NCBI GenBank assembly: GCA_024304985.1
Contig: JAMWZC010000010.1
Span: 62,001 to 126,000, forward strand
DNA: 64,000 nt
Reading direction: 5' to 3'
From: Paracoccaceae bacterium
GTDB taxonomy: Bacteria > Pseudomonadota > Alphaproteobacteria > Rhodobacterales > Rhodobacteraceae
Shown: in pieces, positions 2,218 through 55,049 of the stretch
Layout: every line of letters begins with the position of its first letter
Position numbering within the stretch: the stretch's first letter is position 1
Translations under genes and position numbers: made by a program
The notes under the pieces: generated by a model
Told to the model about the DNA's origin: nothing
The model's database searches: none
The model's input: the letters and a program-made list of their open reading frames with translations, nothing else

Positions 2218-2280
2218 CCACCGATGGACGGCCCGCGCCTTGCCCGCCATCCGACACGGCTCATCAACAGGAGGGTCGCC

Positions 2281-3081
2281 ATGCGCGCAGCGGTTACTGT
2301 CATCGCCCTCATCCTCTGGGCAACCGCGCCCCTGCCCGCGCAGGCCAGCACCCTCTGCACGCTTCTGACAGACGCGCAGACAGGCGCCACCCTGCTGGAG
2401 CAGGGCGATTGCGCCACCCGCGTCACCCCGGCCTCGACCTTCAAGATCCCGCTCGCCGTCATGGCCTTCGACGCAGGAGTGCTGACCAGCCCCGACAGCC
2501 CCATCCTGTCCTTTCGCCCCGGCGACCCGGACTGGGGCGGCGCGCTGTGGATGCGTGACACATCCCCCGCCGACTGGATGCGTCATTCGGTGGTCTGGTA
2601 TTCGCAACGCCTGACCCGCGCGATGGGCGCCGACAGCCTCACCCGCTACGCGCAGGACTTCGGCTATGGCAATGCCGATCTCTCCGGTGATCCCGGTTTC
2701 GACAACGGGCTGGAGCGGGCGTGGATCGCCTCCTCCCTGACCATCTCTCCACGCGAGCAAGCCGCCTTCCTGCGCGCGCTTCTGCGCGACGCCCTGCCCG
2801 TGACGCGCGCCGCCATGGCCCAAAGCCGCGCCCTGCTTGAAACCCATCAAAGCGCGGGCTGGAACCTGCACGGCAAGACCGGCACCGCCTATCCCCGCCG
2901 TGCGGATCGCAGCTTTGACTATGCGCGGGGCTGGGGCTGGTATGTCGGCTGGGCGACGCAGGCCGACCAGAGCGTGATCTTCGTCCGCCTCACACAGGCC
3001 AGCCACCGCAGGACCGTGTCCCCCGGCATCCTGACCCGTGACGGCTTCCTGCAAGACTGGCCGAACCTCGCCCCCCGCTAG
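2281..3081 (+). CDS. class D (OXA-type) beta-lactamase
   Basis: 266-residue periplasmic serine beta-lactamase with an N-terminal signal peptide ending near AQA. All class D landmarks are in order: STFK (S52, K55; nucleophile and the Lys that is normally carboxylated), SVV (from S103), YGN (Y129), the WIASSLTISPREQ helix, and KTGT (K199). ATG 2281 follows the ribosome site AGGAGGG at 2269-2275. The base composition is like the neighbours, and no integron or IS is adjacent, so this looks like a resident chromosomal gene. The substrate range cannot be read from sequence. A BlaR1-sensor-like origin is excluded because there is no membrane sensor domain. Confidence 0.9.
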   Translation: MRAAVTVIALILWATAPLPAQASTLCTLLTDAQTGATLLEQGDCATRVTPASTFKIPLAVMAFDAGVLTSPDSPILSFRPGDPDWGGALWMRDTSPADWMRHSVVWYSQRLTRAMGADSLTRYAQDFGYGNADLSGDPGFDNGLERAWIASSLTISPREQAAFLRALLRDALPVTRAAMAQSRALLETHQSAGWNLHGKTGTAYPRRADRSFDYARGWGWYVGWATQADQSVIFVRLTQASHRRTVSPGILTRDGFLQDWPNLAPR

Positions 3082-5535: not shown

Positions 5536-5539
5536 GGCA

Positions 5540-7090
5540 TCATCCTTTCGACGCGCGCCACTGACCGATCAGCCGGTCCGTCAGCGCATTGAGGTAAAGT
5601 CCGTTCATCAGATGCACCCGCAGGCCCATGGCCGCCGGATGCCCCGCCCATAGCGGGAAAGTCGCCTGCGCGACCGAGGCCAGCCCGAAACTGGCCAGCG
5701 CCAGCACCAGGGTCGCCCAGATCAACCCATCAGGGGCCGGCGGCAGCGGCAGCGTGCCCGCCGCCAGCGCCGTGATCCCGGTCTGCAGCGAGAAATAGGC
5801 CACCGTCGCCGCCCCCGACATCGCCACCGTGCGGATCGTCAGCGGCCACGGCGCCAGATCCGCCAGACCCTGCGCGATCAGATAGGCCACCCCGAAGATC
5901 AGGATCGCCCCCAGCGCCACGGTCTGCGGCGGCTTGTCCATGATCCCGAACAGCACCCCGACCGCGCCATAGATCACGAGCGCCAGCCCAAAGGCCCGCA
6001 TCACCGCGCGCAGATCAGGCACCGCCACCGGACCGGGTCGCCGGATGCGCGCCACCTGCTCGACCGCCCCGCCCGAAGCCAGAAAGGCATGCGCCTTATA
6101 CAGCGAATGGGCCACGATATGCAGCAGGGCCAGCGGGAACAGCGCCAGACCGATCTGCAAGACCATGAACCCCATCTGCGCGCAGGTGGACCAGGCCAGC
6201 GCCGTCTTGACCGATGGCTGCGTCAGCGCCACCGCCGCGCCCACCAGCGCGCTGAACCCGCCGATCAGCGCCAACAGCGCCAGCACACCGGGGGCCGCCA
6301 GCAACACATCGGCAAAGCGGATCAACAGAAAGCCTCCCGCATTCACCACACCTGCATGCAGCAGGGCGGATACAGGGGTCGGCGCCTCCATCACTTCCGT
6401 AAGCCAGCCATGCGTCGGGATCAGCGCCGACTTGAACACCGCCGCCACCGCCAGCAGCAGCGCCGCCAGCCACAGCGTGCCCGGCACCTGCCCCGCCTGC
6501 ACGGTCGCCGCGATCACGCCGATATCGGCCGTCCCGAAGCCGTGGATCAGCACCCCGGCCGCAACCAGCAAGGCCGTCGTGCCCGCAATCCCGCTCAGGG
6601 TCTTTTTCCGCGCCGCCCGCTGCGCGCGGGGCCGGTCCGGATAGAACAGCAACAGACGATGCAGCCCGACACCCACCATAGCCCAGGCCAGCACCAGTTG
6701 CACCAGATTGCCCGCACTCACCAGCAGCAGCACCGCCGCCAGCGTGGCCGACATCGTCGCCATGAAATGCCCCTGTCCGCCCTCGCCGTCCAAGGCGGTG
6801 CGCGCATAGCGCAGCACGATCCAGCCCACAAAGGACACCGTGCCCAGCATCGCGACCGACACGATGTCGATCCGCACGGAAAACGCCAATCCCAGCGGAC
6901 CGGGCAGACCGGCTGTCGACGGCCCCTGCAACGCCAACATCACCGCGGCCCCGACAGCCGCAAGGATCGCCACGCAGGCCGCAGCTTCGGGCAGGCGCAG
7001 CCGCGCGCCCTCGCGCGCCACCGGCCGCAGCACCAGATCAAGGGCCACCAGCGCAAGGACAAGCGGGCCAAGGTAGGGAAGAAATGTCAT
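5540..7090 (-). CDS. dabB: DabB, NuoL/MrpA-like membrane subunit of the inorganic carbon uptake complex
   Basis: 516-residue polytopic membrane protein of the proton-conducting NADH dehydrogenase/Mrp antiporter family, with more than a dozen hydrophobic segments. It includes HGWLTEVMEAPTPVSALLHAG, shown here in family context as the NuoL-like TM7/TM8 region with its conserved Lys/His. Partnered with DabA it is thought to use the proton gradient to drive CO2 hydration. A true respiratory subunit is unlikely because no other nuo or mrp genes are adjacent. ATG 7090 follows an AGGAG ribosome site. It is divergent from a LysR gene across a 95-bp spacer. Confidence 0.9.
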   Translation of the reverse strand: MTFLPYLGPLVLALVALDLVLRPVAREGARLRLPEAAACVAILAAVGAAVMLALQGPSTAGLPGPLGLAFSVRIDIVSVAMLGTVSFVGWIVLRYARTALDGEGGQGHFMATMSATLAAVLLLVSAGNLVQLVLAWAMVGVGLHRLLLFYPDRPRAQRAARKKTLSGIAGTTALLVAAGVLIHGFGTADIGVIAATVQAGQVPGTLWLAALLLAVAAVFKSALIPTHGWLTEVMEAPTPVSALLHAGVVNAGGFLLIRFADVLLAAPGVLALLALIGGFSALVGAAVALTQPSVKTALAWSTCAQMGFMVLQIGLALFPLALLHIVAHSLYKAHAFLASGGAVEQVARIRRPGPVAVPDLRAVMRAFGLALVIYGAVGVLFGIMDKPPQTVALGAILIFGVAYLIAQGLADLAPWPLTIRTVAMSGAATVAYFSLQTGITALAAGTLPLPPAPDGLIWATLVLALASFGLASVAQATFPLWAGHPAAMGLRVHLMNGLYLNALTDRLIGQWRASKG

Positions 7091-34120: not shown

Positions 34121-36625
34121 TTATCCGTCCTGACGGATCGTTGCGTTGGCAGGGTCATAGGGGCTGTCCTCGACCACCCGTGCATCCCACAACTGATCGA
34201 ACATCTTGACCTTCAGCACCGTGCCCGGCACCGCCAGATCGGGGCGGACATAGCCCATGCCAATGCTTTGGCCGAAATGCACCGAATAGCCGCCCGAAGT
34301 CAGTCGCCCCACGCGGGTGCCGTCGGTCGCATAAAGCGCCTCACGGCCCCAGGGATCGGCATCGGCGGGACCATCCACAAGGATCGTCACGCATTTGGAG
34401 CGAATGCCAAGCGCCTCCATCGCGGCCTTGCCACGGAAGTCTTTGGACAGATCCACGAAACGCGGCAGATCGGCCTCAAGCGGGGTGGCGTCGCGGCCGA
34501 GTTCGTTGCCGAAGGCGCGATAGGATTTTTCCTGCCGCAGCCAGTTCTGCGCCCGTGCCCCAACCAGCTTCATGCCATGATCCGCGCCCGCCTTCTCCAG
34601 CAGGTCAAAAAGGTAGTTCTGCATCTCGATCGGATGGTGCAGTTCCCAGCCCAATTCACCCGTATAGGCGACGCGGATCGCATTGACCGGGCACATGCCC
34701 AGCTCGATCTGCCGCGCGCTGAGCCACGGGAACCGCTTGTTCGACAGGGCGGTGCCGGGATCGGCATCCTTGATCACCGCTTTCAGCACATCACGCGATT
34801 TCGGCCCCGCGATGGCAAAGACGCCCCATTGCGTGGTGACATTCTGGATCTCGACATAGCCGAAATCACCCATCTTGTCGGCGGCGGATTTGCGCAGGAA
34901 ATCCGCGTCATAATCGGTCCATGCGCCCGCACTGACCAGATAATACTCATCTTCGGCCAGACGCACGATCGTGTATTCGGTCCGCGTGGTGCCGTGATCG
35001 GTCAGCGCATAGGTCAGGTTGATCCGGCCCACCTTCGGCAGCTTGTTGCAGGTGAACCAATCGAGGAACTGCGTGGCGCCCGGTCCCTTGACCAGATGCT
35101 TGGTAAAGGCGGTGGCATCGATGAGGCCCACGCCCTCACGGATCGCCGTCGCTTCTTCAACGGCATAATGCCACCAGCCGCCACGGCGGAAGCTGCGGGC
35201 ATCATGGTCAAAATTGTCCGGCGCATCCAGCGGGCCATAGTAGTTTGGCCGTTCCCATCCATTCACATGGCCGAACTGTGCGCCGCGCGCTTTCTGGCGG
35301 TCATAGGCGGGGGCGGTGCGCAGCGGGCGGCAGGCTTCTCGTTCCTCATCGGGGTGATGCAGGATGAAGACATGCTCATAGCATTCCTCGTTCTTGCGCG
35401 CGGCATATTCGGTGGTCATCCAACTGCCGTAACGCTTGGGATCAAGGGCGGCCATGTCGATCTCGGCCTCGCCCTCGACCATCATCTGCGCCAGATAATA
35501 GCCGGTGCCACCGGCCGCCGTGATGCCAAAGCTGAAGCCTTCGGCCAGCCACATGTTGCGCAGACCGGGCGCGGGGCCGACCAGCGGGTTACCGTCGGGG
35601 GTATAGCAGATCGGCCCGTTGAAATCATCCTTGAGACCCACGGATTCCGAGGACGGGATCCGGTGGATCATGGACATGTATTCCTCTTCGATCCGCTCCA
35701 GATCCAGCGGGAAGAGATCGGCGCGGAAACTGTCGGGCACACCGAATTCGAAGCGCGCAGGCGCGTTCCGCTCGTAGGGGCCCAGAATCCAGCCGCCGCG
35801 TTCCTCGCGCACATACCATTTCGCATCGGCATCGCGCAGCACGGGATGCTCCAGCCCGCCCGCCTTGCGGTAGGCGACCAGCGCCGGATCAGGCTCAGTC
35901 ACGATGAACTGATGCTCGACCGGAATCGCGGGCGATTTGATCCCCAAAAGCCGCGCCGTGCGCTGCGCGTGATTGCCCGTGGCGGTCACGACATGTTCGG
36001 CGGTGATGACGATCTGCTCGTCGGATGGCACAAGGTTGCCGCCCTTTTCCACCATCTTGGTGCAGGTCACCTGCCATTCGGACCCGGTCCAGTGATAGGC
36101 GTCGGCCTGCCATTTGCGCTCGATCATCACGCCGCGCTGCCGCGCGCCCTTGGCCATGGCCATCGTGACGTCGGCCGGATTGATATAGCCATCCGTGGGG
36201 TGATAGATCGCGCCTTTCAGATCCTCGGTCCGCACCAAGGGCCAGCGGTCCTTGATCTGGGCGGGTGTCATCCATTCATAGGGCACGCCGCAGGTCTCGG
36301 CCGTGGTGGCATAGACCATGTATTCGTCCATCCGCGCCTGTGTCTGCGCCATCCGCAGGTTGCCGACGACGGAAAAGCCCGCGTTCAGGCCGGTTTCGGC
36401 CTCCAGCGACTTGTAGAACTCGACCGAATATTTGTGGATATGGGTGGTCGCAAAGGACATGTTGAACAGCGGCAACAGCCCCGCCGCATGCCATGTCGAG
36501 CCCGATGTCAGCTCGTCGCGTTCCAGCAGCATCACATCCTGCCAGCCGGCGCGTGCCAGATGATAGGCGATCGAGGTGCCTACCGCGCCGCCACCGACGA
36601 CCAGAGCTTTGACATGTGTTTTCAT
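34121..36625 (-). CDS. FAD-dependent dimethylglycine/sarcosine dehydrogenase-like protein with GcvT domain
   Basis: 834-residue two-domain enzyme. The N-terminal DAO-type FAD domain (1-430) starts KALVVGGGAVGTSIAYHLA, with SGSTWHAAGLLPLF, whose His is the usual covalent-FAD attachment in dimethylglycine dehydrogenases. The C-terminal GcvT/aminomethyltransferase-like domain (about 440-834) would pass the released one-carbon unit to tetrahydrofolate. It fits use of betaine-derived methylamines, typical of marine Rhodobacterales. It is first of a minus-strand group but 128 nt from ggt, and probably has its own promoter. The exact substrate is not certain. Confidence 0.88.
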   Translation of the reverse strand: MKTHVKALVVGGGAVGTSIAYHLARAGWQDVMLLERDELTSGSTWHAAGLLPLFNMSFATTHIHKYSVEFYKSLEAETGLNAGFSVVGNLRMAQTQARMDEYMVYATTAETCGVPYEWMTPAQIKDRWPLVRTEDLKGAIYHPTDGYINPADVTMAMAKGARQRGVMIERKWQADAYHWTGSEWQVTCTKMVEKGGNLVPSDEQIVITAEHVVTATGNHAQRTARLLGIKSPAIPVEHQFIVTEPDPALVAYRKAGGLEHPVLRDADAKWYVREERGGWILGPYERNAPARFEFGVPDSFRADLFPLDLERIEEEYMSMIHRIPSSESVGLKDDFNGPICYTPDGNPLVGPAPGLRNMWLAEGFSFGITAAGGTGYYLAQMMVEGEAEIDMAALDPKRYGSWMTTEYAARKNEECYEHVFILHHPDEEREACRPLRTAPAYDRQKARGAQFGHVNGWERPNYYGPLDAPDNFDHDARSFRRGGWWHYAVEEATAIREGVGLIDATAFTKHLVKGPGATQFLDWFTCNKLPKVGRINLTYALTDHGTTRTEYTIVRLAEDEYYLVSAGAWTDYDADFLRKSAADKMGDFGYVEIQNVTTQWGVFAIAGPKSRDVLKAVIKDADPGTALSNKRFPWLSARQIELGMCPVNAIRVAYTGELGWELHHPIEMQNYLFDLLEKAGADHGMKLVGARAQNWLRQEKSYRAFGNELGRDATPLEADLPRFVDLSKDFRGKAAMEALGIRSKCVTILVDGPADADPWGREALYATDGTRVGRLTSGGYSVHFGQSIGMGYVRPDLAVPGTVLKVKMFDQLWDARVVEDSPYDPANATIRQDG

Positions 36626-45257: not shown

Positions 45258-46337
45258 TCACCCCATCCGGTAGCCGGGCGTGGACAGGGACAAGGCCAAC
45301 TCTGCGTCGTCCATATCCTCGGGAATGTTTTCAAACAGCGGCGTGGTCAGATAGCGCTCGCCCGTGTCGGGCAGCATGGCCAGGATCACCGTGCCCGAGG
45401 GCGCCTGTTCGGCGATCTGCATGGCCACTGCAAAGCTTGCACCGCCTGAAACCCCCGTCAGTATCCCCTCGCGCGCAGCCAGCTTGCGCGCCCAGGCGAT
45501 ACCATCCCCCCCGGCGACGGGGATCAAATCGTCATAGCCGCCGTTGTCCAACGCCTCTTGCAGGACCAGCGGGATGAAATCGGGTGTCCAGCCCTGAATG
45601 GGGTGCGGCGTAAAGGCCGGGTGGCTTTCCGCCGGGGCACCGCCCGCGCCACGCGCCTGCACGATCCCGCTGCCGACCAGCGCGGCGTTGGCAGGTTCGG
45701 CAAGGATGATGCGGGTCTCGGGCCGCTCCTTGCGCAGCACCCGCGACAGACCCGCAACCGTGCCTCCCGTGCCATAGCCAGTGACAACGTAATCCAGCCG
45801 GTCGCCTGCAAAATCGCCGATGATCTCGCGCGCGGTTGTGGCCTCGTGGATATCGGCATTGGCGGCTGTCTCGAACTGGCGGGCCAGAAACCAGCCGTGT
45901 TTCTCGGCCAGTTCGACCGCTTTCAGGTACATGCCCGTGCCCTTCTCGGCACGCGGGGTCAGCACCACCTTGGCACCCAGCATCCGCATCAGGCGCCGCC
46001 GTTCCACCGAGAAACTGTCGGCCATGGTCACGACCAAAGGATAGCCCTTCTGCGCGCAGACCATGGCCAGCCCGATCCCGGTATTGCCGCTTGTCGCCTC
46101 GACGACCGTCTGGCCGGGAGACAAGGTTCCCGACTGCTCGGCTGCCTCGATGATGTTCAACGCCAGCCGATCCTTGATCGACGCACCGGGGTTGAACGCC
46201 TCGGCCTTGACATAAAGCCTGACCCCTTCGGGTGCGAGGTTGTTCACCCGGATCGCCGGCGTATCGCCCACCGTGTCCAGGATCGAGTCATAGAGGCGCC
46301 TGCGCCCCCGTGTGCTGCGGATCGTCATCGCGTCCAT
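45258..46337 (-). CDS. cysteine-synthase-like PLP beta-replacement enzyme
   Basis: 359-residue fold-type II PLP enzyme. The PLP lysine is K55 in NPGASIKDRLALNII, the substrate loop is TSGNTGIGLA, and the PLP-phosphate loop is GYGTGGTVAG. A C-terminal extension (IPEDMDDAELALSLS...) exceeds plain CysK. It uses an O-activated serine to make cysteine or a beta-substituted alanine (compare CysK and SbnA). ATG 46337 follows GGAGAC. Housekeeping cysK is not expected in such a cluster, so a specialised nucleophile is likely. Confidence 0.86.
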   Translation of the reverse strand: MDAMTIRSTRGRRRLYDSILDTVGDTPAIRVNNLAPEGVRLYVKAEAFNPGASIKDRLALNIIEAAEQSGTLSPGQTVVEATSGNTGIGLAMVCAQKGYPLVVTMADSFSVERRRLMRMLGAKVVLTPRAEKGTGMYLKAVELAEKHGWFLARQFETAANADIHEATTAREIIGDFAGDRLDYVVTGYGTGGTVAGLSRVLRKERPETRIILAEPANAALVGSGIVQARGAGGAPAESHPAFTPHPIQGWTPDFIPLVLQEALDNGGYDDLIPVAGGDGIAWARKLAAREGILTGVSGGASFAVAMQIAEQAPSGTVILAMLPDTGERYLTTPLFENIPEDMDDAELALSLSTPGYRMG

Positions 46338-46401
46338 GAGATGTCTCCTTCCCAAATACCGGAGCTTGCATCGATCCGGCCATGTTCCAGCCCCGCACGG
46401 G

Positions 46402-46764
46402 TCAGTGCTGGTGCTCAGGCGGCGCGAAGAGGATCATTTCGACGCGCTCGTCCCCCTCGACATAGGCGTCATGTCCGGGCGGGATCTCGAAGAAATCTCC
46501 GGCCTTCAGATGCGTCTTGATGCCCGTGTCCAGCATCCGGACCACCAGATTGCCCGAAATGCAGTATCCGGTATGGCGCATCGGGCAACTGTCCGGCGAT
46601 CCGAGCAATGGCTTTTCGTCCGCCTCCCAGGTCCAGCCGGGTTCGAAAATGGCGTGCATCCCGGTCGTGCCATCGGCCATCTGGAGAATGGCGATTCCGC
46701 CGCGGGCCTTCATGTCCAGAACCTGGTCCGGGGTCTCGAAACGTCGTGTCTCAATGGCTGTCAT
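46402..46764 (-). CDS. cupin-domain protein
   Basis: 120-residue single-cupin protein. The core GTTGMHAIFEPGWTWE...CPMRHTGYCISGNLVVRM and KAGDFFEIPPGHDAYV supply beta-barrel and possible metal ligands (His in MRHTGY and PPGHD). The role could be a sensor, isomerase or dioxygenase-like enzyme. ATG 46764 follows GGGAGAAG. It is the first gene of the minus-strand PLP cluster and divergent from the TPR regulator. Confidence 0.85.
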   Translation of the reverse strand: MTAIETRRFETPDQVLDMKARGGIAILQMADGTTGMHAIFEPGWTWEADEKPLLGSPDSCPMRHTGYCISGNLVVRMLDTGIKTHLKAGDFFEIPPGHDAYVEGDERVEMILFAPPEHQH

Positions 46765-46913
46765 CTTCTTCTCCCTTTGGTCACTATCTGCGCGGTAAAG
46801 CCCCACGTCCGGACTGAACCGATCCTGACAGCCTACCGCACAAGCGCTGGATTGCTTGACGGGGGCATGAAGAAAGCATGAAGGCCTACGACCATTGTCG
46901 TGTAATATCGGGC

Positions 46914-48461
46914 ATGGCTTGGACATTCGGACATTTCCGGCTTGATCCGGAGCAGTTCCAACTGACCCGCGATGGCTCGCCCGTGCGGCTGGAACCGCAG
47001 GTCCTGTCGCTGATCATCCATCTGGTCCGCAACCGTCATCGTATGGTGCCCAAGGATGCACTGGCCACCGCGGTCTGGAACGGGGCCGTGTCCGACGCCA
47101 GTATCGCAAGCCGCATCCGATCCGCCCGTCAGGCGGTGGGTGATGATGGCACCCGCCAGAGCGTGATCCAGACCGTGCATGGCCGGGGCTTCCGGTTCAT
47201 CGCACCGGTCACGGACCTGCGCCCGGCCACCCCCGAGGTGACCCGGCCAGACGACATCGCGCAGAGCGCGGATCTTTCGCGACCCTCGATCGCGGTCCTG
47301 CCGTTCCGCCCCTTGGGCGCGATGCCCGACCTTGCCATTCTGGCCGAGGCGATTCCGCATGAGATCATCCAGGCCCTGTCACGCATGCGCTGGCTGGCGG
47401 TGATCGCGCGCGGCTCGTCCTTCCGGTTTCGCGGCCCCGAGACCGATCTTGATCTGGTGGGCACGGCGCTGGGGGCGGAATACGTCCTGTCCGGCCTGAT
47501 CGAGATCCGCGATGGCAGCATCGTCGTTGTGCTTGAACTGGCCGATGCGACACGCGGCGAGGTGATCTGGGGCGACCGTCTGACAGCACCGCCAGCAGGG
47601 ATCGAGGATCTGCGCCAAAGGATCGTCGCGCGGGTGGTCGCGGCTCTGGACCTGCAAGTGCCGCAGCACGCGGCGCGCATTGCGGCACTGGGCAGTTCCG
47701 AGCAACTGGATGCATGGGCCAACTATCATCTGGGGCTCAGCCAGTTGTACCGCTTTACGCCCGATGCGAACCGCGAGGCACAGCATTTCTTTGAACGGGC
47801 CGTAGCGCTGGACCCGCGCTTTGCGCGCGCCCATGCGGGGCTGTCCTTCACAAGTTTCCTCGATGCTTTCCTGCATCTGGGGCCGGATGATCGCGCCGCC
47901 GTGACCGCCGCACGGCGGCATGCGGAACGCGGGCTGGAGCTGGACCCGCTCGACGCCTTTACCCATTACACCATGGGCCGGTCATTCTGGCTGACCGGCG
48001 ACCCGGACGCCGCGGCCACTTGGCTGCACCGCGCCATCGACCTCAATCCCAATTATGCACAGGGTTTCTATGCCAGCGCTTTCACCGCGATGCTGTCCGG
48101 CAAGACGGATGCGGTCGCGGCAGGGCTTGACAGGGCACTGAACCTCAGTCCGCTGGATCCGCTGCTCTACGGGATGCATGGTGTGCGTGCGCTGTCCCTG
48201 ATCCAGACGGGTGACACCCGCGCGGCCGCCCGCTGGGCGGACCGGGCCGCCAACACGCCGGGCGCGCATTACCTGATCGCGATGATCGCGGTCGTCGCCA
48301 ACGGGCTGGACGGTCGTCACCAGCAGGCCGCGCGCTGGCGTCAGGATGTGCGCCGCCGCAAACCCGACGCCGCAGCCGCCCATTTCTTCGCGGCCTTTCC
48401 CCTGGTTGACACGGACACCAGAACCCGGATCGGGGATGAACTGTCCCGCCAGGGGTTCTGA
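46914..48461 (+). CDS. winged-helix (OmpR/CadC-type) TPR transcriptional regulator
   Basis: 515-residue soluble regulator. Residues 1-95 form a DNA-binding winged helix (GHFRLDPEQFQLTRDG, QTVHGRGFRFIA), followed by a linker, an FlgO-like/adenylate-cyclase-associated domain (SIAVLPFRPLGAMPDLAIL) and C-terminal TPR-like repeats (for example AGLSFTSFLDAFLHLG and MGRSFWLTGDPDAAATWLHRA). It is not membrane-anchored, unlike CadC. ATG 46914 matches the usual family start; ATG 46878, 12 codons upstream, has a better ribosome site and is possible. It is divergent from the cupin gene across about 150 bp and probably controls that cluster. Confidence 0.82.
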   Translation: MAWTFGHFRLDPEQFQLTRDGSPVRLEPQVLSLIIHLVRNRHRMVPKDALATAVWNGAVSDASIASRIRSARQAVGDDGTRQSVIQTVHGRGFRFIAPVTDLRPATPEVTRPDDIAQSADLSRPSIAVLPFRPLGAMPDLAILAEAIPHEIIQALSRMRWLAVIARGSSFRFRGPETDLDLVGTALGAEYVLSGLIEIRDGSIVVVLELADATRGEVIWGDRLTAPPAGIEDLRQRIVARVVAALDLQVPQHAARIAALGSSEQLDAWANYHLGLSQLYRFTPDANREAQHFFERAVALDPRFARAHAGLSFTSFLDAFLHLGPDDRAAVTAARRHAERGLELDPLDAFTHYTMGRSFWLTGDPDAAATWLHRAIDLNPNYAQGFYASAFTAMLSGKTDAVAAGLDRALNLSPLDPLLYGMHGVRALSLIQTGDTRAAARWADRAANTPGAHYLIAMIAVVANGLDGRHQQAARWRQDVRRRKPDAAAAHFFAAFPLVDTDTRTRIGDELSRQGF

Positions 48462-48465
48462 TCCG

Positions 48466-49125
48466 TCAGATCACCGCCAAAAGCGATATGGCACCGACCA
48501 GAATGAGGCTCAGCGCCCACAGCAGATCCAGATTGAACCATGCCCTGGACAGGAACCTCAGCCCGAACCAACGGTAAACCCCGAAGGCGATCATCCCACC
48601 CGACAGCGTCATCGCCACGCTATGCGCCAGGGCGACACCGATCGCGATCCCGGCGGTGCTGGCCATCAGATCCTGCGCGGCGGCGTGTCCGGCATCAGTG
48701 TCCACTGTCCGGCACAGACCCAGATAGATCGGCACCAGCATCAGGCCCGCACCATGCGCCATCGCCGCCAGAAAGGACCACAGCGCAAGCCGAGAGGGCG
48801 GCACACGGGCCAGAAAGCGCGGGTGCCGGCGATTCAGAAGCAGGTAAACGCCAAGCCCGATGACCAGACAGGCGGCGGCGATCTGGATCTCGCGCTGCCA
48901 TTGCGCAAGGAAAAGCAACGCGGTGAACGGAAACAGGATGGCCCCCATGGCCAGCAGATGCCCTGCGGCCAAGGCCCCGAGCGCCTTGAACAGGCTGCCT
49001 TCTGCCCGATCCATCAAGGCGGCCGAGACCGCAAGCGGCCAGCCCATCGCCGGATTGATCCCATGGTAGATGCCGGAGACAACAACGGCCCACCAAAGGG
49101 CCGCTGCCGTATCGATGCCCATCAC
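48466..49125 (-). CDS. uncharacterised polytopic membrane protein (GIYHGINPAMGW motif)
   Basis: 219-residue membrane protein with about six hydrophobic segments. The first loop reads SGIYHGINPAMGW and a later one AMAHGAGLMLVPIY, with conserved-looking His in membrane segments; I do not recognise a named family with certainty. The His motifs recall metal-transport or LysE/NicO-like proteins (inference). Only 3 nt separate it from the SBP56 gene stop, so it is likely last in that operon and may serve metal supply or efflux. Confidence 0.7.
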   Translation of the reverse strand: MMGIDTAAALWWAVVVSGIYHGINPAMGWPLAVSAALMDRAEGSLFKALGALAAGHLLAMGAILFPFTALLFLAQWQREIQIAAACLVIGLGVYLLLNRRHPRFLARVPPSRLALWSFLAAMAHGAGLMLVPIYLGLCRTVDTDAGHAAAQDLMASTAGIAIGVALAHSVAMTLSGGMIAFGVYRWFGLRFLSRAWFNLDLLWALSLILVGAISLLAVI

Positions 49126-49128
49126 GCG

Positions 49129-50529
49129 TCAGACAGAGGGGTAGCAGAAACTGTCTGTCGAGCAGTCGCCCCCTTCCAGCCTGATCTGATGGCTGCGATA
49201 CCCTTTCGGGAATGCGACATAGAAATCCTCGGCCAGGGTCAGCCCTCCGTTTTCGCCGACATGCGCCATGACCATCTGTCCGCCGTCGTCATCGGGATAG
49301 AACTGGTTGTCCCATGTCGAATAGAGAGAGTTTGTCCAGTAGACGCGTTTGCCGTCCCGGCTGATCTCGACCATCTGCGGACCGAAGGCAAAGGGCTTGC
49401 CATTTGGATGCTTGGTGCCGCGCGCGATGCCCCCCAATTCGACTTTCCCGGCAAGACGGGGCTGCATCGGGTCCGAGACGTCATATTGATGCATCTCGCC
49501 CAGTCCCCAGCACGCGACATAGAGATACTTGTCATCAAGGCTGAGGTCGATATCGGTGACCAGTGGCGGCACCGCTTCGAACCCTTTCAGCAAGGGCGGC
49601 AGGTTTTCGGGTTTCTCGGGACGCGGGTCGATGGTGAGGGTTTTCTTCGCCTCGAAGGTGCCGTCGTCCTTTTGCCACCATGTGAAGATCGCGCCCTGCA
49701 GGTTGGTCGTGTCCACGACGACGCCGCAGAACCCGTAATTCTTGGACGGGTCATGCGCCGGGCGGATTTCAAGTGCCATCTGATGGTTCTCGCCCAGATC
49801 AATGGTCTGCACGTTCTTGCGCTGACGCAGATTCCAGAAGTGGATCGAATGGCCGTATTTGTTGCTCAGCAGGTCTTCGGCGACGATGCCGTTTTCGAAT
49901 TGCGGCGGCAGTCCCCATTCCGAACTGACCATGTAGTCGCGCGGCAGGTTCCACCAGAAATCGTAGTGCTTGTCCTGCTTGCCCCTGTCCATCTCATAGC
50001 GGCCGAGGATCTCGAAGGTTTCACAATCCATGATGAAGATACCCGGCGGTCCGTCTGTCCCGTCCACGCCGCCACCGCCCAGGGTCGAGACATAGATCCC
50101 CTCGGGGCCGCAATGGATCGTGTGGGGGCGCGAATAGCCGGTTTTGGCAAAGACTTCTTCGGGCTCGATGATCTTGTGGATCTTGGCCTTCAGCGGCTCC
50201 TTCACGTCGATGACATAGATGCGCGAGGACCGGATGCCGGGAATGATCAGATAGCGCCGTTCCAGAAAGGCGTGACCGGACAGCGGCGACAGGGACGAAG
50301 AACAGGCGTTCCATCCAAAGTGGTGAAACTCGTCACCCGTGTTGGGCATGATCACCTGATGGAGGATCTGACCGTAACTTTTGGAGTTGGGGTCCACGTC
50401 GATGACCGCCAGTCCGTCGGGTTGCGATCCATCGGGGCTGAGCATCAGCGTGAAGGCCAATGTCTCGGCCGGGGCTTCCATGGCGAGCTTTGGGGTCGCA
50501 TGGAATGTAGGATCTGGTCGCAAGTTCAT
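49129..50529 (-). CDS. mtoX: selenium-binding protein 56 family / methanethiol oxidase
   Basis: 466-residue SBP56 (SELENBP1) homologue. Landmarks are FHHFGWNACSSSLSP, PHTIHCGPEGIYVS, GYGFCGVV-like NYGFCGVVVDTTN, KHYDFWWNLPRD and CWGLGEMHQYDVSD. Bacterial members oxidise methanethiol to formaldehyde, H2S and H2O2 and are copper-dependent. The expected beta-propeller length is complete. It is encoded downstream of the acyl-CoA synthetase, hydratase and DmdA-like genes, consistent with a step that consumes methanethiol from methylated sulfur compounds. Periplasmic export is not evident from the N-terminus. Confidence 0.9.
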   Translation of the reverse strand: MNLRPDPTFHATPKLAMEAPAETLAFTLMLSPDGSQPDGLAVIDVDPNSKSYGQILHQVIMPNTGDEFHHFGWNACSSSLSPLSGHAFLERRYLIIPGIRSSRIYVIDVKEPLKAKIHKIIEPEEVFAKTGYSRPHTIHCGPEGIYVSTLGGGGVDGTDGPPGIFIMDCETFEILGRYEMDRGKQDKHYDFWWNLPRDYMVSSEWGLPPQFENGIVAEDLLSNKYGHSIHFWNLRQRKNVQTIDLGENHQMALEIRPAHDPSKNYGFCGVVVDTTNLQGAIFTWWQKDDGTFEAKKTLTIDPRPEKPENLPPLLKGFEAVPPLVTDIDLSLDDKYLYVACWGLGEMHQYDVSDPMQPRLAGKVELGGIARGTKHPNGKPFAFGPQMVEISRDGKRVYWTNSLYSTWDNQFYPDDDGGQMVMAHVGENGGLTLAEDFYVAFPKGYRSHQIRLEGGDCSTDSFCYPSV

Positions 50530-50626
50530 CTGTCATCCTCCCTTGGAAAAACGTCTGCGTTTCGTGCGTGCTCGATCTCCTCACACCGACTGTGCTGCGG
50601 CTTTCACACCGCGTTCTGGGGCTTTC

Positions 50627-52324
50627 TCATTGGACACAGCCGTCTTGCCCGGCGGCGATGCCCTCTATCTCGACCGGTGCCTGCGCCAAGATCCGCGCCT
50701 GTTCGCGCAGCATGAATTTCTGGACCTTGCCCGTCGATGTGCGCGGGATCGGCATCAAGACGAAACGCCCTGGCACCTTGTAGCCCGCCAGATGGGTGCG
50801 GCACCAATCCCGCAGCGCGTCGGCATCTGTCGTGGTGCCGGCGGATAGTTCGACGAAGGCGCAGGGCGTTTCGCCCCAGCGGTCGTGTGGCATGGCGACA
50901 ACGGCGGCAACCTGAACGTCACGATGGCGATAGAGTATCTCTTCGACCTCGATCGAGGAAATGTTTTCGCCACCCGAGATGATGATATCCTTGGAGCGAT
51001 CCTTGAGCTGGATGTAGCCGTCGGGGTAAATCACGCCAAGATCGCCGGAATGGAACCAACCGCCGGCAAAGGCGTCCTGTGTCGCCTGCGGGTTGCGAAG
51101 ATAGCCTTTCATCACGACGTTGCCGCGAAACATGACCTCTCCCATGGTCTGGCCATCGCGCGGCACCGGCGTCATTGTCTCAGGATCAAGCACGTCAAGC
51201 TGCTCAAGCGGCAGATAGCGCACGCCCTGCCGGGACTTCAGCGCCGCCTGTTCGCCTGCTGGCAGATCGGACCAGGCCGCGTGCCAGTCGTTGACGACCG
51301 CGGGGCCATAGGTTTCGGTCAGCCCGTAAAGATGCGTCACCTCAAAACCCGCAGAAGTCATGTCCGCCAGAAGCTTTTCCGGGGGCGGCGCGGCTGCGGT
51401 GAAGAACTGCACCTTGCGGGCAAGCTGATGTTTGACGGGGACGGGTGCCGAAATCATCAAGGACATGACGACGGGCGCGCCGCACAGATGGGTCACGCTT
51501 TCATCGGCAAGGGCATTCCAGATCGCCTCGGCCCGGACATTGCGCAGGCAGACATGCGTGCCCACGATCGCCGACAGCGTCCAGGGAAAGCACCAGCCGT
51601 TGCAGTGGAACATCGGCAAGGTCCACAGATAAACCGCATGTTTCGGCATCGAGGTCGTCAGCGCATTGCCCTGCGCCAGAAGGTAGGCCCCGCGATGATG
51701 CGACACCACACCCTTGGGATCACCCGTGGTGCCCGACGTGTAGTTGACAGCAATCGCATCCCATTCGTCCTCGGGCATGAGCCAGACGAAATCAGGGTCC
51801 CCGTCGGAGAGGAACATCTCATAGTCGGTGGCGGCGACAGTGGCGGCAGGTCCGCTGTATTCCGGGTCATCATAGCGGATCAGCACCGGCCTGACGGTCG
51901 CAAGGGTAAGCGCCTCTTGCAGCAGCGGCATGAACGCGCGATCCACGATCACGACCTTCGACATCGCGTGATCAAGCTGGAACGCGATGACAGCGGCATC
52001 CAGCCGGGTGTTGATGGAATGGAGAACCGCGCCGCACATCGGCACGCCGTAGTGACATTCCAGCATGGCCGGCGTGTTCGCCAAGAGCGCAGACACCGTA
52101 TCCCCGCGCATGATCCCCGATCTTGTCAGGGCAGAGGCAAGCTGCCGCGACCGCAGGTAGAAATCGGCATAGCTGCGGCGCAGCGCACCATGCACGATTG
52201 CCGTATGATCGGGAAAAACGCTGGCCGCGCGTTCCAGAAAGGTCAGCGGCGTCAGAGGCTGAAAGTTCGCAGGATTGCGATCCAGACCTGTGTTGTAGGG
52301 GCTTGCAACCATCGGCTCAGGCAT
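50627..52324 (-). CDS. AMP-forming acyl-CoA synthetase, DMSP-type cluster
   Basis: 565-residue ANL ligase. The P-loop-like motif NYTSGTTGDPKGVVSHH, adenine motif HLYGLTETYGP, GDLGVIYPDGYIQLKDRSKD and catalytic Lys in PRTSTGKVQKF are complete. It overlaps the hydratase gene (start ATG 52324, or ATG 52312 twelve bases later). In a DMSP-like demethylation route an enzyme like this would activate 3-methylmercaptopropionate; characterised DmdB proteins are of a different subgroup, so substrate assignment is by context only. Confidence 0.85.
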   Translation of the reverse strand: MPEPMVASPYNTGLDRNPANFQPLTPLTFLERAASVFPDHTAIVHGALRRSYADFYLRSRQLASALTRSGIMRGDTVSALLANTPAMLECHYGVPMCGAVLHSINTRLDAAVIAFQLDHAMSKVVIVDRAFMPLLQEALTLATVRPVLIRYDDPEYSGPAATVAATDYEMFLSDGDPDFVWLMPEDEWDAIAVNYTSGTTGDPKGVVSHHRGAYLLAQGNALTTSMPKHAVYLWTLPMFHCNGWCFPWTLSAIVGTHVCLRNVRAEAIWNALADESVTHLCGAPVVMSLMISAPVPVKHQLARKVQFFTAAAPPPEKLLADMTSAGFEVTHLYGLTETYGPAVVNDWHAAWSDLPAGEQAALKSRQGVRYLPLEQLDVLDPETMTPVPRDGQTMGEVMFRGNVVMKGYLRNPQATQDAFAGGWFHSGDLGVIYPDGYIQLKDRSKDIIISGGENISSIEVEEILYRHRDVQVAAVVAMPHDRWGETPCAFVELSAGTTTDADALRDWCRTHLAGYKVPGRFVLMPIPRTSTGKVQKFMLREQARILAQAPVEIEGIAAGQDGCVQ

Positions 52325-53120
52325 CCTTCCAGTGAGGCGTGCGTTTTTCGATGAAGGCGGCGATGCCTTCCTCGGCATCGCGGGCGAGCATGTTGTCGAC
52401 CATGACCTGCGTCGCGTGCGCATAGGCGGCGGACAAGGGCATCTCGCGCTGCTCATAGAAGGCGCGCTTGCCGGTGGCCAAGGTCATGGCGGATTTCGAC
52501 GCGATCTTGCACGCCATCTGCATCGTGGCTTCGCGCAGGGCGTCTTGATGGGCGACGGTCCTGTTGATCAACCCCATCCGCGCGGCGTGATCAGCCGTGA
52601 TGATGTCGCCTGTCAGCAGCATGTCCATCGCATGTTTGCTTGCCACATTGCGGGACAGGGCGACCATGGGGGTCGAGCAGAACAAACCGATGTGAACCCC
52701 CGGTGTGCTGAATGTCGCCGACTGGGCTGCGATGGCCAGATCGCAGCTGGCCACAAGCTGGCAGCCTGCGGCGGTGGCAATCCCCGTCACCTCGGCGATG
52801 ACGGGCTTCGGGCAGGTGACAATGCCCTGCATGACATCAGAGCATAGCGTGAGGATCCGCGCGAAATAGGCGCGTCCGCCATCGGGGCCTGCCCTGCCCG
52901 CCGTCATCTCCTTGAGGTCGTGACCCGCACAAAAGGCGGGGCCGTGCGCGGCAAGGATGATCACCCGCACCGCAGGATCACCGCCGGCCCGCGCAAAGGC
53001 GCGGGACAGCTCCGTCAGCATCGCCTCTGACAGCGCATTGCGCCGTCCGGGGTCATTCAGCGTCAGACGCAGGATGCCATCCGCGTCCAGATCTTGCAAA
53101 AGGATGTCTCCGGTCTGCAT
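52317..53120 (-). CDS. enoyl-CoA hydratase/isomerase family protein (ECHDC3-like)
   Basis: 267-residue crotonase-fold protein. The motifs RRNALSEAML, GPAFCAGHDLKEMTAG and TGIATAAGCQLVASCDLAIA are typical of the ECHDC3-like group. The usual catalytic Glu pair is not evident in the second oxyanion-hole loop (AGCQLVAS), so hydratase activity needs checking. ATG 53120 is used. The next gene overlaps by 8 nt. By context it could act on a thioester-bound thioether or alkene intermediate, like DmdD in the DMSP pathway (a crotonase-fold protein). Confidence 0.82.
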   Translation of the reverse strand: MQTGDILLQDLDADGILRLTLNDPGRRNALSEAMLTELSRAFARAGGDPAVRVIILAAHGPAFCAGHDLKEMTAGRAGPDGGRAYFARILTLCSDVMQGIVTCPKPVIAEVTGIATAAGCQLVASCDLAIAAQSATFSTPGVHIGLFCSTPMVALSRNVASKHAMDMLLTGDIITADHAARMGLINRTVAHQDALREATMQMACKIASKSAMTLATGKRAFYEQREMPLSAAYAHATQVMVDNMLARDAEEGIAAFIEKRTPHWKDA

Positions 53121-53211
53121 GGCTTCGGGTCCTCACATGACGCCCATGGGACGTTGATCCACAGGCTGCTGACAAAGCTGTTGCACCGCACAAGGGGGCC
53201 GGTGCCGGTGG

Positions 53212-53245
53212 ATCAAAAGACCGGACATGTGTCCGGTCTCTTGAT
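53212..53245 (-). terminator. rho-independent terminator after the DmdA-like gene
   Basis: AGACCGGACA (53218-53227) pairs with TGTCCGGTCT (53230-53239), and after an A/C mismatch five more pairs extend the stem (ATCAA/TTGAT). On the minus strand a T-rich tail follows (TCTTTTGATC). It lies between the DmdA-like gene and the hydratase gene and would partly uncouple them. Confidence 0.75.
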
Positions 53246-53256
53246 GGGCCGCGCTT

Positions 53257-54396
53257 TCAGGCGGCGGCGAGTTTCTTTCTGGGGTCATAGAATGGACGCT
53301 CGACCACCGTCGCGCGCGTGGGTCCGGACGGGGTCACGACCTCGACCTCGGCCCCGATATGGGCATGCGCGACGGCCACCATCGACAGCGCGATGTTGCG
53401 CTCAAGCCGGGGAGAGTAGACCGCCGATGTGACCTTGCCGATATCCGTACCGTCCTTGTTGATGGCCCAGAAGGTGGTGTTCGGGCCTTTCATCGGCGCG
53501 CAGTCGATGATCAGACCCACCTGCATCCGGCTGACACCCTGCTCCTGAATGCGCCGCAATGCGGGCTTTCCGATGAAATCGGCCTCGATGTCCAGGTTCA
53601 CAAGGCGGTCCAGCCCAAGTTCATATGGGTTGGTCGTGATGTCCGCATCGGCATGGTAGGACAGCATCCCGCCCTCAATACGACGGATCGAAGAGGTGTG
53701 GCCCGGCTTCAGGCCATAGTCCATGCCGGTGGCCATGATCCGTTCCCACAACGCATCGCCATAGGCACTGTCGCGCAGATAGATCTCATATCCCAATTCG
53801 CTGGACCAACCGGTGCGGGACACAAGCAGGGGGATGCCGTCGAGGTCCATCTCGCGGTGCCAGTAATACTTGAGGTCAAGGATACTGTCGCCGAACAGTG
53901 CCTGCATGATCTGGCCCGATTTCGGCCCTTGCAACTGCAACGGGGACACGTCCGGTTCGATGATCGTGACATCAAGGCCGGAATGAACCGCCACGCCCTG
54001 CGCCCACAGCAGGATGTCGCTGTCCGCCAGCGAGATCCAGAAATGATTCTCCGCCAGCCGCAGCAGAATCGGGTCATTGAGAATGCCGCCTTCGGCATTG
54101 GTGATGAGGACATATTTGCACTGCCCCACCGCCATCTGTGACAGATCGCGCGGCGTCAGCATCTGCACGAAACGCGCGGCATCAGGGCCGGTGATTTCGA
54201 CCTGACGCTCCACCGCCACGTCACACAGGATCGCGTCATTGACCAGGTTCCAGAAATTCTGTTCCGGATCACCGAAATCGCGCGGGATATACATGTGATT
54301 GTAGACGGAAAACCCCTGCGCGCCCCAGCGGACGGTGGCGTCGAAATAGGGGGATTTCCGGATCTGCGTGCCAAAGCCGAAGTCGTCTGCTTGCAT
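53257..54396 (-). CDS. DmdA-like aminomethyltransferase-fold protein (putative DMSP/thioether demethylase)
   Basis: 379-residue GcvT-fold protein that resembles DmdA. The features seen are VYNHMYIPRDF (31-41), CDVAVERQVEITGPDAARF (58-76), QMLTPRDL, IEPDVSPLQLQGPKSGQIM, and the C-terminal SMVAVAHAHIGAEVEV. DmdA transfers a methyl group from dimethylsulfoniopropionate to tetrahydrofolate, giving methylmercaptopropionate. Whether this protein is true DmdA or a DmdA-like paralogue needs phylogeny. It is first of the minus-strand cluster with the hydratase, CoA ligase and SBP56 genes, after the Lrp gene. A terminator lies just downstream. Confidence 0.8.
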   Translation of the reverse strand: MQADDFGFGTQIRKSPYFDATVRWGAQGFSVYNHMYIPRDFGDPEQNFWNLVNDAILCDVAVERQVEITGPDAARFVQMLTPRDLSQMAVGQCKYVLITNAEGGILNDPILLRLAENHFWISLADSDILLWAQGVAVHSGLDVTIIEPDVSPLQLQGPKSGQIMQALFGDSILDLKYYWHREMDLDGIPLLVSRTGWSSELGYEIYLRDSAYGDALWERIMATGMDYGLKPGHTSSIRRIEGGMLSYHADADITTNPYELGLDRLVNLDIEADFIGKPALRRIQEQGVSRMQVGLIIDCAPMKGPNTTFWAINKDGTDIGKVTSAVYSPRLERNIALSMVAVAHAHIGAEVEVVTPSGPTRATVVERPFYDPRKKLAAA

Positions 54397-54539: not shown

Positions 54540-55049
54540 TCATTCGGTCTGTCGGGGCGCAACGACATCATTCGAGGCCAATTTGACCAGATTTGGCAGA
54601 CTGGACTTCACGGTCCGAGTCGCGATGTAGGTCATGTAGCGATCAACCCCCAGTTCGGCATCCAGCATGGCCTGCATCAGCGCCTGAAAGCCAGTAAGAT
54701 TGGAGCAGACCACCTTGAGGACGTAATCCATACCGCCCCCCGTCGCGATACATTCCGTGAATTCGTCCCTGCTGTTCACAAAAGCTTCGAACCTGTCGAA
54801 GTCGGCCTTGCGGTGATGTGTCAGCGATACGGTCACGATGACCCGCGTGAATTCGCAGATCCGCTCAAGCGCGATGTCGGCGTGATAGCCACGAATGAAG
54901 CCCGCCGCCTTGAGCCGATCCAGGCGGGCCCAGCAGGGTGTGGCAGAGATATTGGCAATTTCGGCAAGTCTGGTCTTGCTCAACTGCCCATGCTGCTGCA
55001 CGGCGCAAAGGATACGCAAGTCAGTCGCATCAAGGCCAATCTTTTTCAT
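54540..55049 (-). CDS. Lrp/AsnC-family transcriptional regulator
   Basis: 169-residue regulator. The N-terminal HTH (LDATDLRILCAVQQHGQLSK, then ISATPCWARLDRLKAAGFI) and C-terminal RAM domain (TECIATGGGMDYVLKVVCSN, LGVDRYMTYIATRTVK) are complete. Ligand is usually an amino acid or related compound. It is directly upstream of and in the same direction as the DmdA-like gene (143-bp spacer holding a dyad), so control of the downstream cluster is likely but not shown. Confidence 0.9.
   Translation of the reverse strand: MKKIGLDATDLRILCAVQQHGQLSKTRLAEIANISATPCWARLDRLKAAGFIRGYHADIALERICEFTRVIVTVSLTHHRKADFDRFEAFVNSRDEFTECIATGGGMDYVLKVVCSNLTGFQALMQAMLDAELGVDRYMTYIATRTVKSSLPNLVKLASNDVVAPRQTE

Follow-up and report, generated by a model that had tools for sequence, protein, structure and literature searches.

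DmdA is a marker in use for the methanethiol-yielding sulfur flux in the sea. The window analysed here, a stretch of 64,000 nucleotides from a Paracoccaceae bacterium, carries the gene for a relative of DmdA, called DmdL below, in a cluster of five genes on the minus strand (48466..54396). The locus raises the question of whether this cluster is a variant of the DMSP route, as a sequence-only reading proposed, or serves another compound. DmdL is kin to DmdA, the best-known sulfur demethylase of the ocean, yet distinct from it, and the cluster looks like a breakdown route. The sequence-only reading is borne out in part: the link of the cluster to methylated sulfur is likely, a simple variant of the DMSP route unlikely.

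ORF translations and a Pfam search confirm the same-strand order of the five genes, with Pfam matches (GCV_T, ECH_1, AMP-binding and SBP56) for four of the products. DmdL, a DmdA-like protein of 379 residues with the fold of THF-dependent demethylases, is encoded at 53257..54396 and matches both GCV_T and GCV_T_C. It is followed by an ECHDC3-type crotonase of 267 residues (52317..53120), an AMP-forming acyl-CoA ligase of the PRK08162 subfamily (50627..52312; 561 residues from the ATG at 52312), an SBP56 protein of 466 residues (49129..50529) and a polytopic membrane protein of 219 residues (48466..49125), which has no match in Pfam or in curated family models. The close spacing claimed earlier holds at three junctions, with gaps of 4 bp between crotonase and ligase, 97 bp between ligase and SBP56, and 3 bp between SBP56 and membrane protein. 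It does not hold between DmdL and crotonase, where the gap of 136 bp contains a terminator-like hairpin of 15 pairs with a T-rich 3′ arm (53212..53245, minus strand), at the place that osmC occupies in relatives. The 136-nt gap folds with a z-score of −2.97, and 1 of 200 shuffles was equally stable. The hairpin is absent from the listing of a consensus terminator scan.

An Lrp/AsnC family regulator of 169 residues (54540..55049, minus strand; Pfam HTH_24 and AsnC_trans_reg), overlooked by the sequence-only reading, lies 5′ of DmdL. Of the listed related loci, 85 extend 1.2 kb or more upstream of DmdL, and since 78 of these have a regulator of this type there on the same strand, it belongs with the five genes. 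The synteny counts were made on the best 80 of 588 relatives and so describe the window's close kin, and among those listed the core order is Lrp-DmdL-OsmC-crotonase-CoA ligase. OsmC and crotonase each accompany DmdL in 55 of 77 listed loci, and the ligase in 47. The recurrence of this order in related genomes, less complete in the more distant ones, indicates that it is beyond chance. The window is the only one of the 77 listed loci with the DmdL-crotonase-ligase-SBP56-membrane protein part and no OsmC; a search of its own genome, run without a control, did not find OsmC. A literature search for DmdA with OsmC returned only a SAR11 sulfur-limitation paper. No transporter keeps a fixed place across the listed DmdL loci; an ABC ATPase-like family occurs in 13 of them at mixed positions. 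The dehydrogenase DmdC is missing nearby, as the sequence-only reading had it: neither the window, searched at E 1e-5, nor any of 94 listed DmdL loci, searched at E 1e-15, has a match.

DmdL scores 377.7 bits against the DmdA model NF009133, below the cut-off of 410, whereas P. inhibens DmdA (PGA1_RS19020) scores 600.3. Against the GcvT models it scores 172.4 and 142.8 bits, with cut-offs of 300 and 235.85. In a tree whose groups had been assigned in advance from identities and scores, DmdL (31 rows) and DmdA (23 rows, P. ubique included) form separate clades, each supported at 100/100. The DmdL clade is inside a DmdA-like superclade, apart from GcvT, the sarcosine/dimethylglycine enzymes and TMAO demethylase, and outside the clade of the studied DmdA members of P. 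ubique and P. inhibens. The best solved match of DmdL, by sequence and by model, is the DmdA structure 3TFH. DmdL resembles DmdA in fold, length and the catalytic signature residues N107, D108, P109, E204 and Y206 (Y206 in 96–97% of rows, the others in all), and the alignment shows W120 and S122 to be common to both as well. It differs in its identity of 35–42% to proteins over the DmdA cut-off, in its separate clade and in its other crotonase.

N107 is found in all 31 DmdL rows. The T-protein rows have Asp in the matching alignment column, presumably the catalytic Asp of the T-protein, D97 in E. coli. The position of D97 in E. coli GcvT was taken from the title of structure 3A8K. Judged by sequence, DmdL is no glycine-cleavage T-protein and does not belong to the DmdA clade; the tree and the Asn bear out the earlier view of it as DmdA-like and no ordinary T-protein. 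Many DmdA-conserved positions are changed (W58C, Q56I, L36Y, Q200E, E238R and N235S), as expected if DmdL has another substrate, and the phylogeny agrees with the earlier suggestion of a compound other than DMSP.

The earlier reading of crotonase and ligase as variants of the DmdD and DmdB steps is not supported. The crotonase scores 395.9 bits against NF006008 (cut-off 313), and among solved chains it comes closest to 3MYB, an enoyl-CoA hydratase from a bacterium, and to 2VX2, the human ECHDC3. It shares the crotonase fold with DmdD and ECHDC3, but E122 and E142 of DmdD, which we take to be the catalytic glutamates, are replaced by Gln and Gly in all 66 copies, that of the window included. 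Lacking both, the protein is no DmdD and cannot work as DmdD does. We know of no methanethiol-releasing activity of a crotonase without these glutamates. The ligase scores 884 bits against NF006020 (cut-off 677) and 293 bits against the DmdB model NF005426, far under its cut-off of 822. It is 46% identical to the ligase adjoining P. inhibens dmdA, which is the dmdA that was knocked out, and both ligases belong to the same subfamily.

As to canonical dmd genes elsewhere, the window's own genome (98.3% complete) has no DmdA over the curated cut-off, but it does contain candidates for other steps. Contig 10 encodes a DmdB-like protein, the genome's best at 749.7 bits (cut-off 822), and a DmdD-like protein with 42% identity and both glutamates kept. 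DmdC-like dehydrogenases (40–41%) are also encoded.

The SBP56 protein (568.9 bits to Pfam SBP56) is of the Rhodobacterales cluster-1 methanethiol oxidase type. Its GWNACS, HTIHC and GGDCST represent all three cysteine motifs of that group, GWNACS, HTV(I)HC and GGDCS(T). Two members, RdMTO and RlMTO, have been purified and consume methanethiol according to PMC10936201. The protein of the window shares the motifs with them and has no signal peptide by eye. The earlier assignment as a methanethiol oxidase agrees with these motifs, and the protein probably mops up methanethiol. MtoX of Hyphomicrobium and R. pomeroyi (PMC5739008) belongs to the same SBP56 superfamily, but the cluster protein reaches only 111.5 bits against the MtoX model NF052453 (cut-off 650) and has a membrane partner in place of SCO1/MauG neighbours, none of which were seen by eye. 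The membrane protein adjoins SBP56 in all 14 genomes examined and in all 10 DmdL-linked loci.

This SBP56 pair beside DmdL is the main tie to sulfur. It is found in 10 of 78 listed loci in three arrangements, and in some of these loci the pair comes straight after DmdL while the rest of the core is missing. On a quick DmdL tree the linkage requires at least 6 changes, and about 0.1 linked cases are expected by chance under simple assumptions (28% carriage, 4 Mb genomes, kinship entering only through the tree count). The remaining 68 listed loci have no SBP56 nearby, and the sulfur link thus rests on a minority of loci. Across 61 genomes of the family, DmdA or DmdL occurs in 15 of 17 with SBP56 and in 16 of 44 without (Fisher 0.0003, or 0.0007 with the window's genus reduced to one genome; genome G014 was counted with a partial SBP56 in these sets). 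Among genomes without DmdA, the co-occurrence of SBP56 and DmdL is weak: DmdL is present in 4 of 6 with SBP56 and in 5 of 33 without (p 0.018), and p is 0.10 with the window's genus as one genome.

Tentatively, and at somewhat less than even confidence, we propose that the cluster is a regulated catabolic module in which DmdL demethylates some onium acid that is not DMSP, in all likelihood one of the dimethylsulfonio type. The favoured substrate would be a sulfonium, for instance dimethylsulfonioacetate or gonyol. By its kinship with DmdA and its residues, DmdL would move a methyl group from such an onium carboxylate to tetrahydrofolate, giving 5-methyl-THF. The ligase may then convert the left-over methylthio acid into its CoA ester. 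This ester might be acted on by the Glu-less crotonase-fold protein through other chemistry, or might pass to DmdC- and DmdD-like enzymes encoded elsewhere. By analogy with the two purified group members, SBP56 would oxidise the freed methanethiol to formaldehyde and sulfane sulfur. The small membrane protein, as its constant neighbour, may serve SBP56, and the position of the Lrp regulator suggests that it controls the module.

In PMC7221440, R. pomeroyi is reported to form methanethiol from dimethylsulfonioacetate by an unrecognised route, and DmdA is said not to accept the compound, which favours the sulfonium reading. The clade of its own, the shared DmdA signature with changed positions, the conserved core operon, the SBP56 linkage and co-occurrence, and the ligase of the subfamily found beside P. 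inhibens dmdA also count in favour of the proposal. Against it count the SBP56-free majority of listed loci, the nitrogen-related neighbours described below, the one-carbon and amino-acid locus in which a DmdL relative of 57% identity sits, the absence of a transporter at a fixed place and of DmdC, the want of a known methanethiol-releasing crotonase without the glutamates, and the weak co-occurrence in genomes without DmdA.

If instead DmdL were a divergent DMSP demethylase with the function of DmdA, the resulting MMPA would be degraded by the DmdB-, DmdC- and DmdD-like enzymes encoded elsewhere. The set of these proteins in a genome without DmdA over the cut-off is consistent with this, as are the 10 of 19 DmdL genomes without DmdA. 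The other 9 carry both genes, which, together with the SBP56-free majority of listed loci, weakens a DMSP route; the separate clades and changed positions also speak against it, and the DmdC-like proteins say little, being present in 82 of 101 genomes. A SAR92 DmdA-like protein, whose kinship to DmdL is not implied, failed to complement a dmdA mutant, according to PMC10746254. We consider a DMSP demethylase unlikely. It is hardly credible that DmdL is an ordinary T-protein of the glycine-cleavage or sarcosine type and that the fatty-acid genes next to it are unrelated. The GCV_T fold is shared, and public plasmid records annotate DmdL as a glycine cleavage T C-terminal barrel protein, but the scores far under the GcvT cut-offs, the invariant Asn, the tree and the conserved synteny contradict it.

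Nitrogen compounds are a serious rival. DmdL might act on a quaternary ammonium compound (betaine, a choline-derived or a carnitine-like acid), with ligase and crotonase degrading the carbon skeleton and the SBP56 pair as an accessory for detoxifying methanethiol of other origin. GMC choline-dehydrogenase-like genes occur near DmdL in 5 of 94 listed loci, in L058 immediately upstream; two of the 94, L060 among them, have an ammonium transporter. The more distant locus L239 has a choline dehydrogenase over its cut-off and, by eye, glnK-amtB adjoining DmdL; in L241, also more distant, a trimethylamine methyltransferase family gene lies two genes upstream. All these neighbours suggest a nitrogen compound. 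In L238 a TRAP transporter lies near DmdL together with a crotonase and a ligase, and the 56% relative in L062 adjoins MTHFR and a Rieske-like ORF (the latter by eye). In the same listed set, however, the SBP56 pair (10) is commoner than GMC (5), AmtB (2), and MttB or MTHFR (0), and some loci have the pair immediately after DmdL but otherwise lack the core. We rate an ammonium substrate as possible, if rather unlikely.

The shared signature, changed conserved residues, conserved operon and repeated methanethiol-oxidase partner make DmdL a concrete candidate for sulfonium demethylation outside the reach of DmdA. Loose DmdA-like matches in surveys may be DmdL rather than DmdA. Finding its substrate would make testable which enzyme yields methanethiol from dimethylsulfonioacetate, a question posed in PMC7221440. 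It would be an improbable extension of the sulfonium proposal that DmdL is the missing demethylase releasing methanethiol from non-DMSP dimethylsulfonio compounds (dimethylsulfonioacetate, gonyol) in marine bacteria, that Lrp-DmdL-OsmC-crotonase-ligase forms a second, parallel sulfonium demethylation pathway across roseobacters, with DmdL alone or with a part-set in SAR116-like and some SAR11-like bacteria, and that the Glu-less crotonase performs new chemistry on methylthioacyl-CoA.

DmdL is also present in small marine genomes. SAR11_1265, described in PMC3160333 as an aminomethyltransferase of unknown substrate beside metF, is like DmdL another DmdA-like marine paralogue without an assigned substrate. 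DmdL proper (71–74%) occurs in 7 of 79 genomes of the family of G357, where a different paralogue with a longer open frame is commoner. In L183, a protein similar in kind to the longer-frame paralogue adjoins MTHFR.

The host genome of 3.76 Mb carries this gene cluster on the minus strand of the window (G000:C2:62001-126000). The first gene in order of transcription encodes an Lrp/AsnC regulator (54540-55049) and the second the GCV_T-fold protein DmdL (53257-54396); they are followed by genes for a crotonase of the ECHDC3 type (52317-53120), a ligase of the AMP-forming class (50627-52312), SBP56 (49129-50529) and a small membrane protein (48466-49125). The 136-bp gap 3' of DmdL contains a 15-pair hairpin, which has no entry in the consensus terminator scan.

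Sequence comparison separates DmdL from both GcvT and DmdA. On the DmdA model, which has a cut-off of 410 bits, DmdL reaches 377.7 bits, and the P. inhibens DmdA that was knocked out in PMC11306105 reaches 600.3 bits. In a tree of 90 rows, where the tree tool flagged several long branches elsewhere, DmdL forms a single clade of 31 rows and DmdA, P. ubique included, a separate clade of 23 rows, each with support of 100/100. A DmdA-like superclade unites the two and leaves out the T-proteins and TMAO demethylase, upholding the sequence-only reading that the protein is no ordinary T-protein. The alignment places Asn in DmdL at the T-protein Asp position; D108, P109, W120, S122, E204 and Y206 are common to DmdL and DmdA, and many positions retained in DmdA are changed in DmdL. 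Eight GCV_T matches occur in the genome, including an FAD oxidoreductase-GCV_T fusion of the dimethylglycine/sarcosine dehydrogenase type at 34121-36625 (minus strand).

The scan of relatives used one genome per species, and the best 80 of 588 were retained; in all of these DmdL identity is 82-94%. The best named plasmid match to DmdL is Loktanella salsilacus, which fits a roseobacter host. With loci from further searches, and after removal of seven duplicates, the synteny set comprised 94 distinct loci. Lrp is upstream of DmdL in 78 of the 85 loci with sufficient flank. For the 77 loci whose flank downstream of DmdL is 6 kb or longer, the counts are 55 for OsmC, 55 for the crotonase and 47 for the ligase; these three occur together without SBP56 in 39 and with it in four, and all four genes are absent from 13. 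Both cysteines are retained in 66/66 OsmC copies. A search run without a control genome found no OsmC of the relatives' type in the window's own genome. Genome G045 has the crotonase-ligase pair without DmdL.

Farther afield, DmdL was found at 66% identity or more in 19 of 385 genomes drawn across the class. One small-genome family has it at 71-74% in 7/79 genomes; six of these measure 1.3-1.5 Mb, and the seventh, at 0.8 Mb, is incomplete. Isocitrate lyase, whose identity was assigned by model in one of the three cases, lies directly upstream on the same strand in three of six small-genome loci (L238, L278 and L279, SAR11-like). In distant lineages glnK-amtB is beside or near DmdL at loci L058, L060 and L239, with amtB model-named in L060 only, and a GMC choline-dehydrogenase-like gene is present at L058 and L239.

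The conserved chemistry, combined with the changes at conserved residues, suggests that the methyl acceptor of DmdL is THF and the donor an onium acid different from DMSP. A sulfonium compound of this kind is our tentative reading, put at somewhat under an even chance. DMSP itself appears improbable as the substrate. P. ubique DmdA is the top match of the predicted DmdL structure (pLDDT 63.8). Position 197, after conversion of the numbering, is presumably the residue described in PMC7487153 as key for DMSP contact. All DmdL rows have Trp here and most DmdA rows Tyr, but the position does not discriminate because P. ubique DmdA has Trp as well. Nitrogen compounds are an unlikely substrate too, if slightly less so than DMSP. 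This alternative is kept alive by GMC choline-dehydrogenase-like genes near DmdL at 5/94 loci (three at one shared position, about 4.3 kb off on the opposite strand), an ammonium transporter at 2/94, a choline dehydrogenase at distant locus L239 and a trimethylamine methyltransferase family gene at distant locus L241; trimethylamine methyltransferase and MTHFR genes were found at 0/94 loci. For a sulfonium substrate other than DMSP, PMC7221440 reports that R. pomeroyi converts dimethylsulfonioacetate to MeSH, that DmdA does not recognise this compound (citing Reisch 2008), that a pathway not yet recognised is suggested, and that gonyol is also used by tested bacteria. DmdL is a fitting candidate for that dimethylsulfonioacetate route. 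The full core is present at L079, in a genome listed as R. pomeroyi SZCCDBG043 (a strain other than DSS-3).

The link to sulfur comes from the SBP56 pair. Three motifs mark the Rhodobacterales cluster-1 methanethiol oxidases, and the window SBP56 has all of them (GWNACS, HTIHC and GGDCST). According to PMC10936201, two oxidases of this cluster were purified and consume methanethiol to give sulfane sulfur. On the MtoX model the window SBP56 scores 111.5 bits, far short of the cut-off of 650. The membrane protein adjoins SBP56 in 14/14 genomes examined, out of 16 with full-length SBP56. Of 78 loci, 10 have the pair next to DmdL, where about 0.1 would be expected by chance under simple assumptions; the pair is placed 3' of the ligase, directly 3' of DmdL (three Mameliella loci) or reversed; its linkage requires at least six changes on a quick DmdL tree. 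Loci L101 and L136 have only a copy of the membrane protein gene, partial or at an edge, and two additional loci have a distant SBP56 (40-41%) near DmdL. Genome G049 has this pair too, at a distance of about 2.7 kb from a DmdA scoring over the cut-off. Among 61 family genomes, DmdA or DmdL is present in 15/17 with this SBP56 versus 16/44 without. Against the sulfur link, SBP56 is missing from the neighbourhood of DmdL in 68 of the 78 loci. At locus L061 (genome G038), a 66% DmdL has ligase and crotonase upstream in a different order and a 40% SBP56 nearby, possibly an independent assembly of the same gene set. At 45258-46926 (minus strand), some 2-3 kb past the window's pair, a cysteine synthase that narrowly misses the CysK cut-off could use released sulfide; a small adjoining ORF is cupin-like by eye.

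The crotonase had been likened to DmdD, which does not stand, as both DmdD glutamates are missing in 66/66 copies; they are also missing in second crotonase copies (52-55%) of five genomes, the window's own among them. The window ligase belongs to the PRK08162 subfamily (884 bits), as does the ligase in the dmdA cluster of P. inhibens (773.8 bits, 46% identity). The curated DmdB model rules it out as DmdB. The proposed search for these steps elsewhere in the genome gave the following: contig 10 encodes a DmdD-like protein (42%, both Glu present) and a DmdB-like protein below its curated cut-off (749.7 against 822 bits), and contigs 3 and 8 encode DmdC-like dehydrogenases (40-41%). In another genome (G047, locus L177, 1-1411), a DmdA-sister protein from an eight-row clade, a candidate further DmdA variant, adjoins a partial DmdD that shares 65% identity with the P. 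inhibens protein.

Elsewhere in the window, 2224-3081 (plus strand) encodes a protein of the class D beta-lactamase family (296.7 bits on NF000270, cut-off 280), and 3166-7090 (minus strand) encodes DabA and a proton-antiporter-type partner, probably an inorganic carbon transporter.
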